From assembly GCA_031213475.1 (NCBI GenBank), contig JARUPZ010000009.1, positions 10,139,601-10,203,600 of the forward strand: 64,000 nucleotides of DNA, given 5' to 3'. The DNA comes from Nereocystis luetkeana (Eukaryota > Sar > Phaeophyceae > Laminariales > Laminariaceae). Below the pieces are notes generated by a model. That model was not told the origin of the DNA and did not search any database. It saw only the letters and a program-made list of their open reading frames with translations. Made by a program: the position numbers and the translations under genes. Below are positions 13,712-60,729 of this stretch, in pieces (the stretch's first letter is position 1; every line of letters begins with the position of its first letter).

Positions 13712-15645
13712 CTCGCGAAACGCCGCCGCGATCCCCCTCTGCAGCGCCGTCCCCGCGTCAGCTCTTGCCGTCCCCGCAAACCCGCCACCTCTACCACCAC
13801 CACCACCACCACCACCACCACCACCACCACCACCACCACCACCACCACTGCTACCGCCACCGCCTNNNNNNNNNNNNNNNNNNNNNNNNNNNNNNNNNNN
13901 NNNNNNNNNNNNNNNNNNNNNNNNNNNNNNNNNNNNNNNNNNNNNNNNNNNNNNNNNNNNNNNNNCCTAGACCACGGCGCGTCTCCCCCTCCTCCTCCTC
14001 TTCCCCCCCCTCATCAAAGAACCACCCGGGCCTCTCACCATCCCCTGTCTCGCTCCCCACCGCTGCCGCCCCTGGAGGAGGATGCCAAGCGCTACCCCGC
14101 CCCCCAGCGCCACCCCCTCCTCCCGGTCCCCACATCCCACCACCGCTCCCACCTCCCCCGTTCATGCCACTCTGCATGACCATCACGCCTCCCTGAAACG
14201 CTCCACCTGGACCTCCGCCCTGAACAACGCCTCCATACATGTGATGAGCTCCCGGCGGAGGCGGGTGGGGGGGGAACGGCGCCCCCCCCGCGGCCACAAC
14301 TATCTGACCGCCCGCTGCCTGCGACATATGCGCCTGATGCGAGAGGGGGTGAGAGGGAGGATAGGAAGAGGCCGGGGGGGTGCTGCTGCGTGCCCCCTCT
14401 CCCCCCCCCCGCCGCCGCCGCCACCACCCCCACTACCCTGGGGGCAGCGGTAAGCGAGTGGCTATTGCGCCCGAGGACAGAGTAACCACCACCGCCCGCC
14501 GCCGCCGCCGCCGGCGCTGCTGCTGTTGCTGGTGGTGGGGTCGTACATGGCACTAGCCGCAAGGGCGGTTCCCCCACGAGGACCGTGTTCTTGATAGCGC
14601 TTGAACTGGTGTGGGGGGTGGTGGGGGGGCGACGGGACCAAGGCCGACGTGGACGATTGCTGCTGAACTTGCTTTTGCGGCTGCAGCTGAGGCTGAGCCT
14701 GCGTCGAGCTTGTCCCTCCTCTTCCTCCTCCTTTTCCAGCTTCTTCGCTCCCCGTCCTCCTTCTCGTCCCATCTCCACCCCTCCCCCCCCGCCACCACCA
14801 CCACCACCACCGCTACCGCCCGCACCTTCAGCCGTACCGTCATCCGTCCTTGACCGCTTTGAAGGCCCTTGTGGAGGGGATGCGCCGTCATCCGAGCCGC
14901 GTCCAGGAGACACCTTAGTCCTCCGTCCCGCGCTACCAGCACCCCCACGGGCTTCGCCCCCACCACCGCCACCGGTGCCGCCGGTACCACCGGCGCCATC
15001 ATCACCACCACCACCACCACCACCACCACCGCCGGAAGGACTTGGGTATCGGTCGCTACCCCGCCCCGCCGGGAGTGGGTCTGCGTTTACTGAGAGGCGT
15101 GGAAGGGTCGCCGCCATCACCGCCGCCACTTTTCTTGCCCTGGCTGCCACCGCCTCCGTCCCGATCTCCGCGCCGCCGCCGCCGCTGTTGGTACCAATCA
15201 ACATCATCATCTTTGCTGTTGTCGCTGTTGCTTTCCTTGTCGCCGGTAGCTTCGGCTGAGCGGGTCCTCGCCGGCCACGGTCTTCGATTTCCGCCCGGCA
15301 GCACGCGGTGTGCCATCGCCGCCTCCATCTCTCGAAGAGGCTGCGTCGCGACGGGCTGTGCTCTGTTGGCGTCATCGGTGTCGTCGCCGCCGGTGTCGTT
15401 ACCGTTGTCACTGTTGCGGCTCTTCGGTCTCGCGGTGTCGGCGGCGGTGGCGGCCGCAGTGGCGGTGCCCTTACGGGTGAGGGGAACCCGGCGCCCCCTC
15501 TCCCCTCCTCCCTCCCTGTCCCCGTGATCCTCCGCTTCCCCCCTCTCGCGCTCCTCCGCGCTACCGCGCCCACCACCGTTACCACCACTTCCGTCTCCTG
15601 CTCCCCTTCCTCCCCCGCCCCTACCTCTCTCTCCCGTGCCCTCGC
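13712..15645 (-). CDS. Gly/Gln/Pro-rich coding region with frame changes and a gap
   Basis: Protein-like text continues through this stretch but moves between frames. In order it includes RPKSRNSDNGNDTGGDDT and WYQQRRRRRGDRD, then KVSPGRGSDDGASPPQGPSK, then STQAQPQLQPQKQVQQQ and HQFKRYQEHGPRGG, then SHQAHMSQAAGGQIVVAAGG. It ends GTALQRGIAAAFRE at a good donor (GAG, then GTGTGTG) at 13712, phase 0. The frame changes fall at G-runs or GGC/GGT repeats, for example near 15058, 14780 and 14410. Short introns are possible, but homopolymer length errors fit better. The 100-N gap lies inside a Gly-coding triplet run. Confidence 0.5.
13866..13965. other. Assembly gap of 100 N
   Basis: Exactly 100 N follow a (CCA)n tract. 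The round number suggests a placeholder of unknown true length. It interrupts a Gly-rich coding exon on the minus strand. Confidence 0.99.
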
Positions 15646-16756: not shown

Positions 16757-17184
16757 CTGGGACAAAACACGACAAGGGAGGGAGTTACGTGTGAGAGTGC
16801 TGCCAGGACAGGGTGGTGTGACCACCACAATCACCACCACCATCACCACCCATGTCACCCGCACTACAACCGCCACCGCCGAAAAACAACAGCAAACATC
16901 ACCAACCCCCCATCGCCACCACCACCACCACCACCGCCGCCCTCACCTTCAACCCCACCAGCCCCACCCCCCACCGCCGGCATCATCACCAACACCGCCA
17001 ACACCCCCTCCTCCCCCAACCCATCACGACGACCCCCACCACCATCACCACCAGTCACCTGCACGGAGCAATCGCGGTAACCGCCACCACCCCCCCCACC
17101 GTCACACCAACACCATCACTCCCACCACCATCCCAACCCCCCCCCCCCCCCCCGCAACACCGACACCACCCCCACCACAATCAC

Positions 17185-17277
17185 CTGCATGGAGTACTCG
17201 CGGTAGAGGCGGTAGCTCCAGATGGCCTCGCGACCACGCTTGTCATTTTCGCCATGCATCCACTGCTTGCTTTCCGA
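17185..17277 (-). CDS. 31-codon exon of the large gene
   Basis: The sequence reads SESKQWMHGENDKRGREAIW and then SYRLYREYSMQ between an acceptor (GTTCTCAG) and a donor (GTGATT), phase 0 on both sides. Mixed, ordered-looking residues contrast with the poly-Gly text around it. It follows the PDZ exons at the protein level and so is just C-terminal of the PDZ fold. Upstream in the intron are five decayed copies of its acceptor and first codons (17290-17870). Confidence 0.75.
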
Positions 17278-17289
17278 CTGAGAACGCAT

Positions 17290-17870
17290 CACGTTGAGAG
17301 CAGACGCGTATACATAAGACACGACAAAAAACACAGGAGGTAAGCATGACCAAAAACTGAAGACCGGTTGTGCACCAACTGCTTGTTTTCCCGCCGACCA
17401 AGTAAGGAACCATCATGTTAAGGGCATACCTGGTACGTACAGACGTGACGCAAAAAACAGAGTGATGAAAACAGAAAAAAAGGTTGTGCATCCACTGCTT
17501 GCTATTCCGACTGGCGTTTTTACCGGCCAGACACAATAGACCCGACGCCAACAACAAAATAGGTAAGGTACTGCGAAACGCAGAAAACGGATTGCGCGCC
17601 CAATGCTCCCTTTATGAACTAGGGAGGGCACTACGTTAAGGGCAGACCCGGGTAGATCGAAACGCGAAGAGCAAAAGAGGGAAGGATAACCTGAACTAAA
17701 AAAATATATCGTGCATCCTCTGCTTGCTTTTCTCCCGACCGAGGAAACAACCACGAAAAAAGTCATGTCAAGACCCGACGCGAAGCAGCAAGAGGTAAGG
17801 ACAACATAGAAAAAAAAAAAAAAAAAACGGGTTGTGCATTCACTGCTTTACGGTCGAGGTGGTGACACCA
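17290..17870 (-). repeat. Tandem decayed copies of an exon start and its 3' splice site
   Basis: The first 20-odd bases of the 17277 exon (sense AGCAAGCAGTGGATGCA) recur in diverged form at about 17367-17399, 17482-17515, 17586-17620, 17706-17742 and 17831-17860. Spacing is 105-122 bp. The intervening intron text is also shared, for example the sense-strand copies of CACGTTAAGGGCAGAC and AAGAGGTAAGGACAAC. Only the copy next to the exon body keeps an open continuation. Confidence 0.8.
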
Positions 17871-17994
17871 AAATCTCCCGGGAAGGGCACACAAAAATAA
17901 CCGGCGCAACAGCAGGGCGGAGGGAAAATATATACCAGGTACCTGGTGTGAAAAAAGAGAGCTGAAAGGGGGCGAAGGCAAGCGGAAGAAAAAA

Positions 17995-18065
17995 TGGGAC
18001 CCTCGCGCATGTGTCGCCTCGCCCGACCCCGTTCTGCCACCACACTAACGCCACTAACATCCCCT
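17995..18065 (-). repeat. Decayed copy of the 3' half of the 18832-18981 exon
   Basis: The sense text GCGTTAGTGTGGTGGCAGAA matches the true exon text GCGTTGGCGTGGTGGCAGAG, and the similarity runs on to GACACATGCGCGAGGGTC. A small insertion shifts the frame. It lies in the intron downstream of the true exon, so exon-edge duplication occurred on this side too. Confidence 0.75.
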
Positions 18066-18584
18066 CTGACCATTCCAACACGCCTTCACGCCCCCCCTCC
18101 CCAGCCCCTATCCCCCCCGAAAAAAAAAAAACGATTCCCGGCCCCCGTCCCCTCCCTTATATCGCAATGCCTTCCACGAACTCTTAAGGGGAGCACTTTC
18201 CTGGTGACAAAAACAGAGCACAGACGGGGCTCCGGAACTACCCAATATAGTTGGAACACTCAAGTTTTTCACACAAAAAAACGTTCTGGGACCTTGAGGC
18301 CAAGCGTACAAAAAGTGATGAAAAACGCCTCTTTTGGGATGGCATAAAGAGCCCCATTTGTGGGGGAAAAGCCTTCGAAACTGTAGGAACTCCCTCTGCC
18401 GTATACCACTCAGGACATTAACATAAGGACCGTTTAGACAGTAATAGGAAGACTAAGCGGTCGTTATAATTCCGCCCAGAAAGGTATATGGCATGCGTCC
18501 TCCGCTCTCCCCTATCCTCATTTCCCATCTTCCTTGCCACAAACACACTACGTACTTAGCTCGCCCCCCCCCGGCACCCTCCGT

Positions 18585-18735
18585 CTCGAAAGGGATGCGT
18601 GGTCAATGGTCAAATTACAAAGGAGAGCAACAAATGAGTATCCCCCCTCCCCCCCCCTCCTATGGCCATACAACTACCGCCATGCATGAGATCGAGTACA
18701 TATCTCCAATCGAGTACACCCCCCCCCCCCCCCTC
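18585..18735 (+). repeat. Poly(C)-element fragments
   Basis: Two pieces are present. GTCTCGAAAGGGATGCGTGG (18590-18609) also occurs on the minus strand at 22795-22818, each time followed by AAGGAG and a C-run. The second piece (18660-18735) is the terminal part of the 0.55-kb poly(C)-bounded repeat, ending ATCGAGTACA and 15 C. Confidence 0.65.
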
Positions 18736-18831
18736 GGCACCCCCTCCACACATCATACACGCCTCCACTCCCCCAACTCCCGTATACCCCCCCCGTTACG
18801 TACAAAAAAAGCGCCATCTCTAGTATCTCAC

Positions 18832-18981
18832 CATCTGACCCATTTCGAGACCCTCGAGCATGTGCCGCCTGACCCCGCTCTGCCACCACGCCAACGCCTC
18901 GTGCCAAGGGTAACCCCTCGCGCTGCTCTCCCCCGTGGCCCTCAGGAAAGTGATGTCGAGCAGTCGCACTCCCTTGACAGA
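18832..18981 (-). CDS. PDZ domain, last part (exon)
   Basis: The exon has 50 codons in phase 0 at both ends, acceptor TTGCGGCAG and donor GTGAGA. It starts SVKGVRLLDITFLRATGES and goes on GYPWHEALAWWQSGVRRHML. Joined directly to the 21913 exon (ending EVAEDLVWSAK) it supplies the last PDZ strand, where VRLLDITFLR fits the usual V-x-L-x-V-x-R pattern. PDZ domains bind C-terminal peptides of partner proteins. The fit across the splice junction is the best evidence that these exons belong to one gene. Confidence 0.8.
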
Positions 18982-19265
18982 CTGCCGCAAAAGAGATAAG
19001 GGGTTGGGTTGGGTTGGAATGGGTTGGGCTACAGGCTAGGTTGCGTTGGATTGGGCAAACACTTGATGGCCCCCAATGACAAACCAGCAGTCGGACCTTC
19101 GTGGCATGGTACAACAGCAGGTGTAAGACGTTGGGTTGGATTGAGTTAAATCAGGTTGGGCTGGGTTGGATTGGGTTCGTTCGCGTTGGGATATATTCGA
19201 TGGCCCTCAACAAGGTCATGTCCTGCAGCCGAACCACTTTGACGAGCTGCTATTAATGCTACTCC
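18982..19265 (-). repeat. Two decayed copies of the PDZ exon start, in TTGGG-rich intron
   Basis: The true exon edge (tggcc word at 18936 through the acceptor at 18983) recurs at 19066-19117 and 19201-19252, about 130-135 bp apart. The copy at 19201 is clearest: its sense text gives LVKVVRLQDMTLLRA beside the true SVKGVRLLDITFLRA. The spacers are made of TTGGG/TTGGA words. Confidence 0.8.
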
Positions 19266-19429
19266 TACAACAGGGGCAGGGTCGCGGGTGGTCTGGTGCT
19301 TACGAAGGTCGGGTTGAGTTGGGTCGGGTAAAGTTTACAAGAACGTTTTTTCCTGGTTGGTCGGGTTTCCTCGACGGCCAAGGGTGGCTCTTACCATGTA
19401 CCAGGTGTTCGAGAAAACTGATATGACAC

Positions 19430-49789: not shown

Positions 49790-52700
49790 TAGCACTAGTA
49801 GTATGGTCATATTCTACTTCCTAGTCGACTTGGTGCCTTGCTACCCTGTCTGCCATCTCCTTCCTACTTTCGTCTACCGCCGTTTCCCTTCTACCCCTCC
49901 TGTTCCCCCCCCTCTCCGCATTCACTCGGTCGGGCTTTATGCCACTTCTCCTGTTGCCCCCTCCCCCCCCGTTCCTTTGGGCACCATCCACGGCGGATGC
50001 GCGGCGCTGTCTACTCATCTCAGCCTCAGCCTCGTGCCACCTCACCATGAACCGTTCGGCTGCTTCAAGGATCCCCCGGTACCACTTCCCCGCCTTTTTG
50101 GCTGCTGTGGACCACAACGCGGTCTCAACTCCAAACACCAAGGGGGCAACTTCCGTTGACCCTTCGGTGGCTCGGAACTCCCTAAGGTCTTCGACTATGC
50201 ATCTATGCCAAGTCTTACACTGTCCGCCTGGTCTCGGGTTCTCCCCACCAGCTATCGTCCCGAGCATTACCCGATTGGGTAATCGCTCCTTGCTTTGCCG
50301 TGCCACGCCCCCCGCAAAGAAGAGCCGCCGTTTGCGAATGGTCGTTTCGATGCTCTCGCAACGTGTCATCTTGAGGGCCTTCGCGTACGAGAGGGTGGCA
50401 TGGTCAGTACGAAGTCGGCGCTGGAAGCCAATGACTCGCAACAGGACTTGGTGGTGAGCCGTTCGAAGCTTGGCAAAGTGTTCCGCTCTGAGGGTCCACG
50501 TCACACACCCGTACAGCAGGGTCTCAATCACCTCGGCCTTCAGCATTCGGACTTTAAGGCTAAGGGGGGCGGTCGTCCTATCATACAACTCCGGGCCGAA
50601 CCGTTTGAAGCATGCTCGCATGAGGCGGATCCGTCGGTCGATTTCGAGCGAGAGGTCAGCGTTTTCGTGGATAACGCCGCCTAGGTATAAGAACTGGGTC
50701 GTCTGCTTATACCTCTGACCTGCCGCTTCGATGACGAGCGGTGGTGCGAGGGTTGTCCGGTCTGGTGTTTGTAGGACCATTGTCTCAGTCTTCTTTTCCG
50801 ACACCGTGAGGCCTGCTGCTTCGAAGACAGTCACGATGACTGTCATCATTTTTGCGAGCCCTTCAGCCGACTTAGAGACAATTCCTGCATCGTCGGCGTA
50901 CAACATGCCCCATACAGACCTTCGCACGCACGCCAATGGCTCCTCCTTCCCTGTTCGAACTACTCCAGCTTCCAAGAGTTGGACCAAATCCCTTACAATG
51001 GCTTCGTCTTGGCTGAAGCGTACTAGTACGACGTGTAACGCAGCAGCGAAGAACACGTTGAACAGTAACGGTGACAGTACACAGCCTTGCCGCAGCCCCT
51101 GCGTGACATCAAACCATTCCGAGAGCTCGCCGTCATCAGTACGCACGCGAGCCCGCATGCCATCGTGGAAATTACGGATAATTCTCAGCATCTTGGTTGG
51201 TACGCCAAAGCGTGTGAGTACCTTCCATAACAGCTCTCGGTCGACAGAGTCGTACGCTTTCTGCAGATCGATGAAGCACACGTATAAGGGGATTTTCCTC
51301 TGTCGTCCGAGCTCTTGCAGCCGGCGCACGACGAACAACATATCAATCGTTGATCGTGCGGGGCGGAAGCCGCACTGTTCCTCGGGGAGTAGTTCCTCGG
51401 TCTCGCAGTAGTTGCTGAGGCGGGACGCGACGATTTTCAACAACACTTTGCCTGCGTGGGCAACAAGCGAGATCCCTCTATAGTTGTTGCAGTCAGTTCG
51501 ATCCTTCTTTTTGTGAAGGACCTTGATGATCGCATCTTTCCATTGCTGAGGGACTTCTCCTGTTAACCAAACATTGACAAGGATGTTGTGAAAGCGCTGG
51601 GCGAATGCCGGGTGGTCGATTTTTAGGAGTTCGACCGGGAGACCATCTGGCCCGACAGCTTTCCAATTCGACATCCCCTTCAGTGCTTCGGTCATCTCGT
51701 CTATGGATGGTTCATCTTCAAGCGACAGTTTAGGCGGTCGCGGTGGCAAGAGGTCGATGATCGTGGGATCGAGTTTCAGCGACTTCGTGTTCAAGAGTTT
51801 GTGATAAAACCCCGCCCATCGTTCACGAATTCGCACCTTATCCCGTAGGATCGTGCCATCCTCGTCCCTAATGAACTGTTCGCTCCTCGCTTTAGTCCCT
51901 TCCAATCCTACCGTACTCTTAAGGTGCTTGTAAAAGCCTCTTTGGTCGTTGTTCGCTAGGAGTCGTTCGGTTTCGGCAAGGTACGCTTCGAAGTACGCAT
52001 GCAGTCCTGCGGCAATCACCTTCTGCAGGTTCGCACACGCAGATCTCAGGGTCTTCCACGCGGTTCTGTCCCGGGGGTGGGCACGCAAGAATTGTCGTGC
52101 ATCCTCCCTCGCTGTCCATGCTGGCATGAATGCGGCCAAGGTTTCGGCAGACTCACACCATCCATGTCTGCGGTGGCGACGTGCAGGGGGTGGTACCTCT
52201 TTTTCGACCGCATCAATAACAGCCGCAGTGAAAATCTCAACCATACCAGACGTATTACGGGGCTGGATAGGCTGGTTGAGAGTGGAGATGATCCTGGAGA
52301 CTACTCGTTCACGACAATTTCCATCGGACATAAAAAGCTGCCTGTCGAACTCTCGGCGTTTCGTCGGTCTACGTATTTGTCTGTTGGGCGCAAAACGACC
52401 ACCGAGTCGGACTTTAATATACAAGATGTTGTGGTCTGAGTCAGCCTTAGCTGGGGCAGGAGGCTGTGGGACGACTTTCGCATCTTGTACTCTAGGTCGA
52501 TGGACTTGACGGGTTAGGATGTAGTCAATCCGCTTACGGTCATTCGGGCCGGTGCCGTTGTAAGTATGCGATATCCCACCCTTGCGCGTGCTGAAAAACG
52601 TGTTGGTGAGAGCCAACTTGCAATTGGTGGCGAACGACAGGAGCCGTCTGCCATTATCGTTACGAACATCACGTCCATACGCTCCCAGCACTCTGCTTTC

Positions 52701-53650
52701 ATCATCACCGCACCCTTCCTTCCTCTGTCCAGTTCGCGCGTTGGCATCCATCAGTACAAACAGACACTCTTTCGTCGGGATTTTTTTCACCAAGTACTCC
52801 AGCTTCTGCCAGAAGATACCTTTCAGTTCGGCGTCCTTGGTACAATCAGTTGGAGCATACGCAACGACGAAATTGACTGCCTCGCATTTGCCAGCCAGCT
52901 CAAAGCGCATAGACATTAGCCGCTCGTCAACGAACTGATGAGTATACACAGACTTACTGCACAACGATTCCTTGACAGCTAGGCCTACTCCGTACAGCCC
53001 TTGCCTGGTGGCTGTTGTTTCCTGTCCTGAACAGAAAACACGATACCCTGCCGCACGGAACGTCGTGCTGCCGGACCTCCGAGTTTCTTGCAGGCCAATG
53101 AAGTCACAGCCGAGTTGCCGTCCCTTCGCCAGTACCCGCTCGTCATGTCCGTACCCGTTCTTCCCCTTTACAGCCAGGGTGCGCACATTGTAGGTCGCTA
53201 CCGTCACAAGTGCCTCCTTCTGTCTCTTACGAGCCTCGCGTGCTGCTTTCTTTGCCAGCCGACGTGAGGCTCGTCCCCGCCTTCTTTTTTTCTTTTTTTG
53301 TTTCTTTTTTTTCGCTATGGCGAAAGTGGCTCTCCGTTTCGTAGCCCGGTACGCGCCTTGGTTCCCGTTGGCTGGGTGCAGCCGTCCCAACCCACGCCGA
53401 CAATCCCATCCTTCCTGTCGTGCATGCATACCCACGCTGTGGCCAGCCTCTCCACTCCACCGGCTGCCCACGTAGCGCTCTCTGCTGTGGTGATGTACCC
53501 GTCCCGCCTGAGGGATGAACTCCTCGGCGTCGGGGTTAAGAAGAAAAAACATCACCACCACCCCACGCGGTCCTTAAAGCGAGCAGGCCACCAGCCGGAC
53601 CGCGCAAGGTTCCCTACCTACGTAGTCCGAAGCTCGATGTTCGTGTGACT
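49790..53650 (-). mobile_element. LINE retrotransposon with an intact frame
   Basis: Non-LTR retrotransposon on the minus strand with one long frame and short flanking non-coding parts. The exact ends and target duplication could not be fixed. The single-ORF layout with N-terminal endonuclease and central reverse transcriptase recalls RTE-like clades, but clade assignment needs a tree. Confidence 0.85.
49821..53561 (-). CDS. LINE endonuclease/reverse transcriptase, 1246 aa
   Basis: A basic N-terminal region (KKKKQKKKKRRRGRASRR, residues about 84-101) precedes an APE-type endonuclease at about 119-380, with ATYNVRTL, GLQETRR, VAYAPTD, LMDANAR and SDHNILYI, the usual metal- and DNA-binding sites. 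The reverse transcriptase is at about 640-930: HKKKDRTDCNNYRGISL, EEQCGFRPARSTIDMLF, FIDLQKAYDSVDR, GLRQGCVLSPLLFN and the catalytic YADD in GMLYADDAGIVS. A C-terminal part has RKRRLFFAGGVAR and CKTWHRCIVEDL, as in many LINEs. It nicks target DNA and copies its RNA there. No stop or frameshift is present. The first ATG is used; the real start may be a later one. Confidence 0.9.
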   Translation of the reverse strand: MVVMFFLLNPDAEEFIPQAGRVHHHSRERYVGSRWSGEAGHSVGMHARQEGWDCRRGLGRLHPANGNQGAYRATKRRATFAIAKKKKQKKKKRRRGRASRRLAKKAAREARKRQKEALVTVATYNVRTLAVKGKNGYGHDERVLAKGRQLGCDFIGLQETRRSGSTTFRAAGYRVFCSGQETTATRQGLYGVGLAVKESLCSKSVYTHQFVDERLMSMRFELAGKCEAVNFVVAYAPTDCTKDAELKGIFWQKLEYLVKKIPTKECLFVLMDANARTGQRKEGCGDDESRVLGAYGRDVRNDNGRRLLSFATNCKLALTNTFFSTRKGGISHTYNGTGPNDRKRIDYILTRQVHRPRVQDAKVVPQPPAPAKADSDHNILYIKVRLGGRFAPNRQIRRPTKRREFDRQLFMSDGNCRERVVSRIISTLNQPIQPRNTSGMVEIFTAAVIDAVEKEVPPPARRHRRHGWCESAETLAAFMPAWTAREDARQFLRAHPRDRTAWKTLRSACANLQKVIAAGLHAYFEAYLAETERLLANNDQRGFYKHLKSTVGLEGTKARSEQFIRDEDGTILRDKVRIRERWAGFYHKLLNTKSLKLDPTIIDLLPPRPPKLSLEDEPSIDEMTEALKGMSNWKAVGPDGLPVELLKIDHPAFAQRFHNILVNVWLTGEVPQQWKDAIIKVLHKKKDRTDCNNYRGISLVAHAGKVLLKIVASRLSNYCETEELLPEEQCGFRPARSTIDMLFVVRRLQELGRQRKIPLYVCFIDLQKAYDSVDRELLWKVLTRFGVPTKMLRIIRNFHDGMRARVRTDDGELSEWFDVTQGLRQGCVLSPLLFNVFFAAALHVVLVRFSQDEAIVRDLVQLLEAGVVRTGKEEPLACVRRSVWGMLYADDAGIVSKSAEGLAKMMTVIVTVFEAAGLTVSEKKTETMVLQTPDRTTLAPPLVIEAAGQRYKQTTQFLYLGGVIHENADLSLEIDRRIRLMRACFKRFGPELYDRTTAPLSLKVRMLKAEVIETLLYGCVTWTLRAEHFAKLRTAHHQVLLRVIGFQRRLRTDHATLSYAKALKMTRCESIETTIRKRRLFFAGGVARQSKERLPNRVMLGTIAGGENPRPGGQCKTWHRCIVEDLREFRATEGSTEVAPLVFGVETALWSTAAKKAGKWYRGILEAAERFMVRWHEAEAEMSRQRRASAVDGAQRNGGGGGNRRSGIKPDRVNAERGGNRRGRRETAVDESRKEMADRVARHQVD

Positions 53651-60491: not shown

Positions 60492-60729
60492 TCACGGGGG
60501 ACCACAGTTAACCCTTTTAGGACTGCAGTCTCGTTTTGGGAACAATTGGGGACAAATTACTTGGAATTTGAGTGCCCTGTCCCCAAAACGGGACTGGAGT
60601 TCTAAAGGGGTTAATAGGACCTACCAGGTACCTGGTATGGTAAATAAATAAAAACCTATCAGGTACCTGGTATATATTTAACCATGTTCACTAACAATAT
60701 TTGGTCCTATTGACTCTGGCCCCCCGTAA
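60492..60729. mobile_element. MITE-B copy 9 with a MITE-A inside its TTAA
   Basis: Left arm CACGGGGGACCACAG then TTAA; right arm TTAATAGGACC and onward to CCCCCGTAAT. The uninterrupted MITE-B arm reads ATAGTTAATAGGACC, so the TTAA is exactly the duplicated target of the inner element. Confidence 0.9.
60512..60610. mobile_element. MITE-A inside MITE-B
   Basis: CCCTTTTAGGACTGCAGTCT to TTCTAAAGGGG between perfect TTAA duplications (60508-60511, 60611-60614). Confidence 0.9.

Follow-up and report, generated by a model that had tools for sequence, protein, structure and literature searches.

In a window of 64,000 nucleotides from the brown alga Nereocystis luetkeana, which is the whole stretch of DNA that was analysed, we found decayed direct copies of exon edges in the introns of a minus-strand gene. 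These repeats are very probably old minisatellites of the kind called 'mirages', a by-product of local duplication across an intron-exon junction. The copies are most likely harmless and not a device for the control of splicing.

Two putative exons of the gene are of interest, both predicted from open frame and splice signals. Exon B (17185-17277, minus strand) comprises 31 codons, SESKQWMHGENDKRGREAIWSYRLYREYSMQ, with the acceptor before 17277 and the donor after 17185. Its donor scores 8.8, and its acceptor scores -0.5, at the 81st percentile of background AGs. Exon A (18832-18981, minus strand) comprises 50 codons, with an acceptor before 18981 (score 2.7, 96th percentile) and a donor after 18832 (score 8.3). 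The gene is single-copy: a protein search of the genome returned six matches, three of which are the gene itself and three of which are weak (E 0.056, 0.085 and 7.5). A Pfam search with nine chosen reading frames of the window gave for this gene only matches below the cut-off, in low-complexity stretches, and we therefore leave it without a name. Rfam at gathering scores gave no match in the 64-kb window. The gene region includes an assembly gap, a run of 100 Ns at 13866-13965. Elsewhere in the window, a long minus-strand reading frame (49821-53573) with RVT_1 and Exo_endo_phos (reverse transcriptase and endonuclease) domains belongs to a LINE-like element.

The largest set of copies adjoins the acceptor edge of exon B and consists of six units, A to F, at 17255-17960 on the minus strand. 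The units start from plus-strand coordinates 17255, 17371, 17487, 17595, 17712 and 17835, with spacings of 116, 116, 108, 117 and 123 bp. Each combines the first ~23 bases of exon B with ~95 bases of the preceding intron, and the unit at 17255 overlaps the exon itself. On the plus strand the exon start ends in TGCATCCACTGCTTGCTTT at 17255, and this sequence recurs at 17371 (16/19), 17487 (18/19) and 17712 (18/19). Within the 64 kb no further plus-strand site matches it at 15 or more of 19 positions (two reach 14), and no minus-strand site reaches 14. Weaker copies of the edge lie in register at 17595 and 17835. The five copies of the exon start that the earlier note had reported besides the exon are thus real, three of them clear and two weaker, with spacings of 108-123 bp.

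The repetition extends into the intron. We cut the units at their anchors, removed the first 26 bases and tested each pairwise alignment of the remaining intron against 300 dinucleotide shuffles. Among units A-E these intron parts proved homologous: five of the ten pairs were matched by none of the 300 shuffles (best z 6.0), and the other five by 1 to 31 of them. Unit F is no better than shuffled sequence outside the edge and matches at the edge alone. The homology of the intron parts of A-E identifies the array as a decayed minisatellite whose last unit extends some 23 bases into exon B. Pairwise identity is 46-63% among units A-E and 41-53% with unit F, and the array is absent from the list of Tandem Repeats Finder because its units are too diverged. 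When 17255-17960 was compared with the 465-Mb genome, in a search that skips simple and very common words and could miss short pieces, the only match was the array itself; the unit likewise had no match elsewhere in the window or in 20 kinesin loci. On these searches of the genome (simple and very common words skipped), the window and the kinesin loci, a dispersed, transposon-derived element as the source of the array was rejected. Chance as the cause of the copies was rejected by the shuffle tests and by the scan of the 64 kb for the exon-start sequence.

The block at the exon edge is the best-kept part of the unit. Its identity is 78% among units A-E, where the remainder has 49-54% (three alignments, scan P 0.001-0.027), and 73% versus 48-51% when units B-E are taken alone, without the live exon (three alignments, P 0.05-0.16). 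The direction of this difference is, in part, as expected if the template for the units was an edge that selection kept unchanged. In the one assembly, the units appear too diverged to suggest present instability of the array.

Acceptor signals in the array were scored with a model built from 23 of 32 inferred kinesin junctions of the same genome, nine having been dropped on inspection by eye, against a background of 2535 intronic AGs. The real acceptor at 17277 ranks low beside the 23 real acceptors, each scored with itself left out of the model (-2.3 to 7.3). Two of the five copies have AG at the corresponding position, at 17510 (-3.3, 54th percentile) and 17618 (-1.8, 69th percentile), and the other three have lost it, so that an acceptor signal is not carried across the units. 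The same-orientation, boundary-spanning tandem duplication in the earlier note is right, but the splice site that the copies were said to contain is kept in that minority. The edge contains a second AG, which lies at 17262 in the exon itself (37th percentile) and survives in four of the five copies (17378, 17494, 17719 and 17842; 30th-65th percentile). The top-scoring acceptors of the array, at 17942 (5.4), 17570 (3.7) and 17429 (3.0), lie outside the repeated position. The AG/GT at 17942 also scores high as a donor (7.8), and that at 17429 is similar (9.7); the former is possibly a zero-length (recursive) splice site or an element end. It falls within a palindrome-like stretch of 20 bases (17926-17945) that has an exact copy on the other strand at 60660-60679.

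The earlier note had proposed that the spliceosome may face an array of decoy acceptors. Under that explanation, false acceptors or enhancer elements of the exon start would be retained as an array that slows or regulates the splicing of exon B. The better preservation of the edge block and the retention of the second AG speak for it. Against it, the AG homologous to the acceptor is lost in three of five copies, the edge sites lie at only the 30th-69th percentile of background AGs, and copies at kinesin exon edges are about as frequent as at random intron positions. Judged by its sequence, the array does not resemble a preserved set of acceptors, and we consider a decoy function unlikely.

The upstream limit of exon B allows some latitude, since its frame remains open over 17278-17412, across all of unit A and into unit B, and the exon might begin earlier than placed here. 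This open frame, together with the rather weak acceptor, would also suit the opposite order of events, in which an intronic minisatellite came first and its last unit supplied the start of exon B. Such an order seems to us quite unlikely: open stretches of 45 codons are not uncommon in random sequence, and the kinesin exons considered below belong to an ancient domain, which makes the exon the source of the copies in those genes.

Copies occur at the other three edges of the two exons as well. A three-unit array with a period of about 132 bp adjoins the acceptor edge of exon A (18936-19335, minus strand). The clear copy of the edge, at 19201-19243, lies 265 bp, or two periods, from the original (z 9.4, 0/500 shuffles). 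In the middle unit, from 19068, the edge is weak (z 1.7, 40/500 shuffles), and the unit is homologous as a whole (z 7.8, 0/500 shuffles); the whole-unit z-scores of the array are 7.8, 9.8 and 5.1. One of the two ~45-base copies claimed for this exon is accordingly clear and the other is weak. About 850 bp downstream of exon A, in the intron, 17998-18052 (minus strand) is a decayed copy of 18849-18898, with 82% identity over 55 columns (z 12.3). The earlier note had taken it for a copy of the other end of the exon. The copy is genuine but comes from the exon interior: it begins about 17 bases inside the donor of exon A, so the splice site is not visible in it. The same intron, between exons A and B, carries a short dispersed repeat (18579-18749) that has relatives in other parts of the window and in several kinesin loci.

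The donor edge of exon B (17178-17205, minus strand) is copied 126 bp downstream in the intron, at 17052-17079 on the same strand, with 86% identity over 28 bases; a longer alignment, which takes in simple-repeat intron, has 73% over 116 columns. This copy keeps a good donor, GTGCAG|gtgactgg, which scores 10.1 against 8.8 for the inferred real donor, so either of the two may be the true donor of exon B. The open frame of the exon ends at 17119, short of the copy. In a test with a null drawn from introns of other loci (300 draws for each edge, lowest possible P 0.0033), in which the donor ends of both window exons were placed one base short, all four edges of exons A and B had a direct copy at P 0.0033-0.0066.

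A rough measure of how often exon edges are copied in this genome comes from the kinesin genes. The kinesin motor family, used as a query, had 132 matches, and 20 loci were taken; domain matches form 39 neighbouring pairs in them, 32 with an acceptable inferred junction and seven without. Within 1.5 kb, the 20 loci contain 71 direct repeat pairs, versus 1.5 in a reversed-sequence control. The 118 edges, which are both ends of 59 domain matches, yield only a rough rate because some of them end the domain and not an exon. At three of the 118 the adjoining non-exon sequence carries a copy, and random pseudo-exons in the same loci predict 4.2; with 30 of the 71 pairs removed as dispersed repeats, 2.2 are predicted and the observed number stays at three. 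The copies are found at locus L042 (5748-5822 and 5919-5994, 88%, donor kept), on the donor side at L055 (4034-4096 and 4551-4613, 86%) and on the acceptor side at L055 (8492-8563 and 8077-8147, 85%, acceptor kept). No inverted copy was found at the 118 edges (3.1 expected).

A more sensitive test was applied to 64 edges at inferred junctions. At P < 0.01 it found direct copies at 4/64 edges versus inverted copies at 1/64, and at P < 0.05 six direct and three inverted. The 64 edges count all 32 junctions, and one of the four significant edges, at L057, belongs to a junction dropped from the acceptor score; without the nine dropped junctions, 3/46 kinesin edges are significant. In these small numbers, kinesin exon edges are neither clearly favoured nor avoided by copies. 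The copies are mostly not adjacent in tandem, with a spacer between copy and original, unlike the arrays of the window. With copies at four of four edges, the window gene stands out against a background of 2-6%, but it was picked for being striking.

It is very unlikely that the copies flank an insertion, with a mobile element or filler DNA between the two copies of a long staggered break that left the exon edge on both sides: a dispersed repeat does occupy 72 of the 96 bases that separate the edge from its copy at L042 and another lies in the spacer on the acceptor side at L055, but 58 of 101 spacers of local repeat pairs contain a dispersed repeat anyway, and no element of this kind separates the units of the exon B array.

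The differences between exons and their copies are in keeping with old mirages that have decayed in the intron. Pooled over ten comparisons, 22 of 58 differences are synonymous, and these are not independent events, because the copies of an array share history. A model in which the copy drifts while the exon accepts silent changes alone, both at the same rate, predicts 18.6 synonymous differences (about 32%); with every change random, 11.2 are predicted. The pooled differences thus agree approximately with a copy that drifts freely next to an exon under constraint. For the copies as a pool, coding constraint was rejected, the 22 of 58 being set against the 18.6 expected without it. With the exon B array set aside, synonymous changes make up 21 of 35 differences, a proportion that leans above expectation and was counted after looking. 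By copy, the synonymous share is 5/5 on the acceptor side at L055, 4/5 at L042 and 7/11 on the acceptor side of exon A. The intronic kinesin edge copies at 5919-5962 of L042 and 8117-8147 of L055 combine differences that are nearly all synonymous with a kept splice site.

Repeats of this construction are known from amphioxus. In the globin gene BflGb6, minisatellite-like tandem duplications comprise the 3' end of an intron and the 5' part of the next exon, with six and three units of 150-160 bp in two haplotypes, and in BflGb9 the 3' exon boundary is duplicated (157 bp) (PMC3087553). The same paper cites Adh3 as the origin of the name 'mirages', states that regular splicing is apparently undisturbed by such repeats, and finds regular splicing by RT-PCR, with many, though not all, mirage units keeping AG/GT (PMC3087553). 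As in amphioxus, each unit of the window holds intron sequence and the adjoining sequence of a putative exon, and both types of boundary are copied: the acceptor side of exons A and B and the donor side of exon B. Of the five exon B copies, two keep AG at the homologous site. The two systems differ in divergence, the amphioxus units being 81-100% identical and variable by haplotype, whereas units A-E are 46-63% identical and seen in one haplotype. By its architecture the finding belongs to the mirage kind, with exon boundaries that are here predicted from frame and splice signals.

Turri et al. 1995 reportedly described a minisatellite with multiple splice donors in IFI6 (6-16). According to an excerpt of PMC4526556, the IFI6 (6-16) minisatellite likewise repeats a splice site in tandem, but its units serve as donors in alternative transcripts, whereas in the window it is mainly the acceptor side that is repeated, as read from the DNA. 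In the potato RdRp gene, as excerpted from PMC4974935, a tandem duplication across intron 1 and exon 2 made a new intron; that duplication is single and recent, whereas here several old units lengthen an existing intron. The earlier note's statement that no standard element class explains the arrays was consequently wrong, given the amphioxus mirages (PMC3087553) and, as far as the excerpt goes, the boundary-crossing duplication of potato (PMC4974935).

A plausible course of events begins with a local duplication that copied about 95 bases of intron together with the first ~23 bases of exon B. The junction beside the intact exon would have stayed in use for splicing, so that the extra copies became intron. 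Repetition would then have yielded six units at exon B and three at exon A, and separate events would have copied pieces at the remaining two edges. The intronic copies would drift freely while selection holds the exon, which would leave the exon-edge part of each unit the most recognisable. We infer that splicing ignores the copies, that copying in this gene ran from exon to intron, and that events followed this order. The process may have been replication slippage, unequal exchange, or fill-in and end-joining at staggered breaks. The abstract of PMC8355091 connects small tandem duplications with breaks that have 3' overhangs and are subject to fill-in synthesis and end-joining. Counting against the mirage reading are the copies at four of four edges, the better-kept edge block, the 21 of 35 synonymous differences and the non-tandem arrangement of the kinesin copies.

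There is a slim chance of a broader view, in which edge duplication is a steady source of intron growth in the lineage and hot-spot genes, such as the one with copies at all four edges examined, keep weak alternative exon ends. If this were true, the synonymous lean in several copies would be a trace of their past or present use. Under the mirage reading, repeated splice sites need not mean regulation, and this calls for caution with similar arrays.

Intron content is very high in the genomes of Ectocarpus and of most brown algae, and the median autosomal intron of Ectocarpus measures 524 bp, according to an excerpt of PMC12477816. A literature search found no boundary-spanning repeats in brown algae, with terms that do not exclude a report. 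Boundary-spanning minisatellites, described in amphioxus and as a single duplication in potato, are also present in another long-intron genome. The kinesin genes provide a first rough rate, a visible copy at 3 of 118 match edges, which is no higher than at random intron positions. The arrays suggest boundary-spanning duplication as one countable source of long introns.
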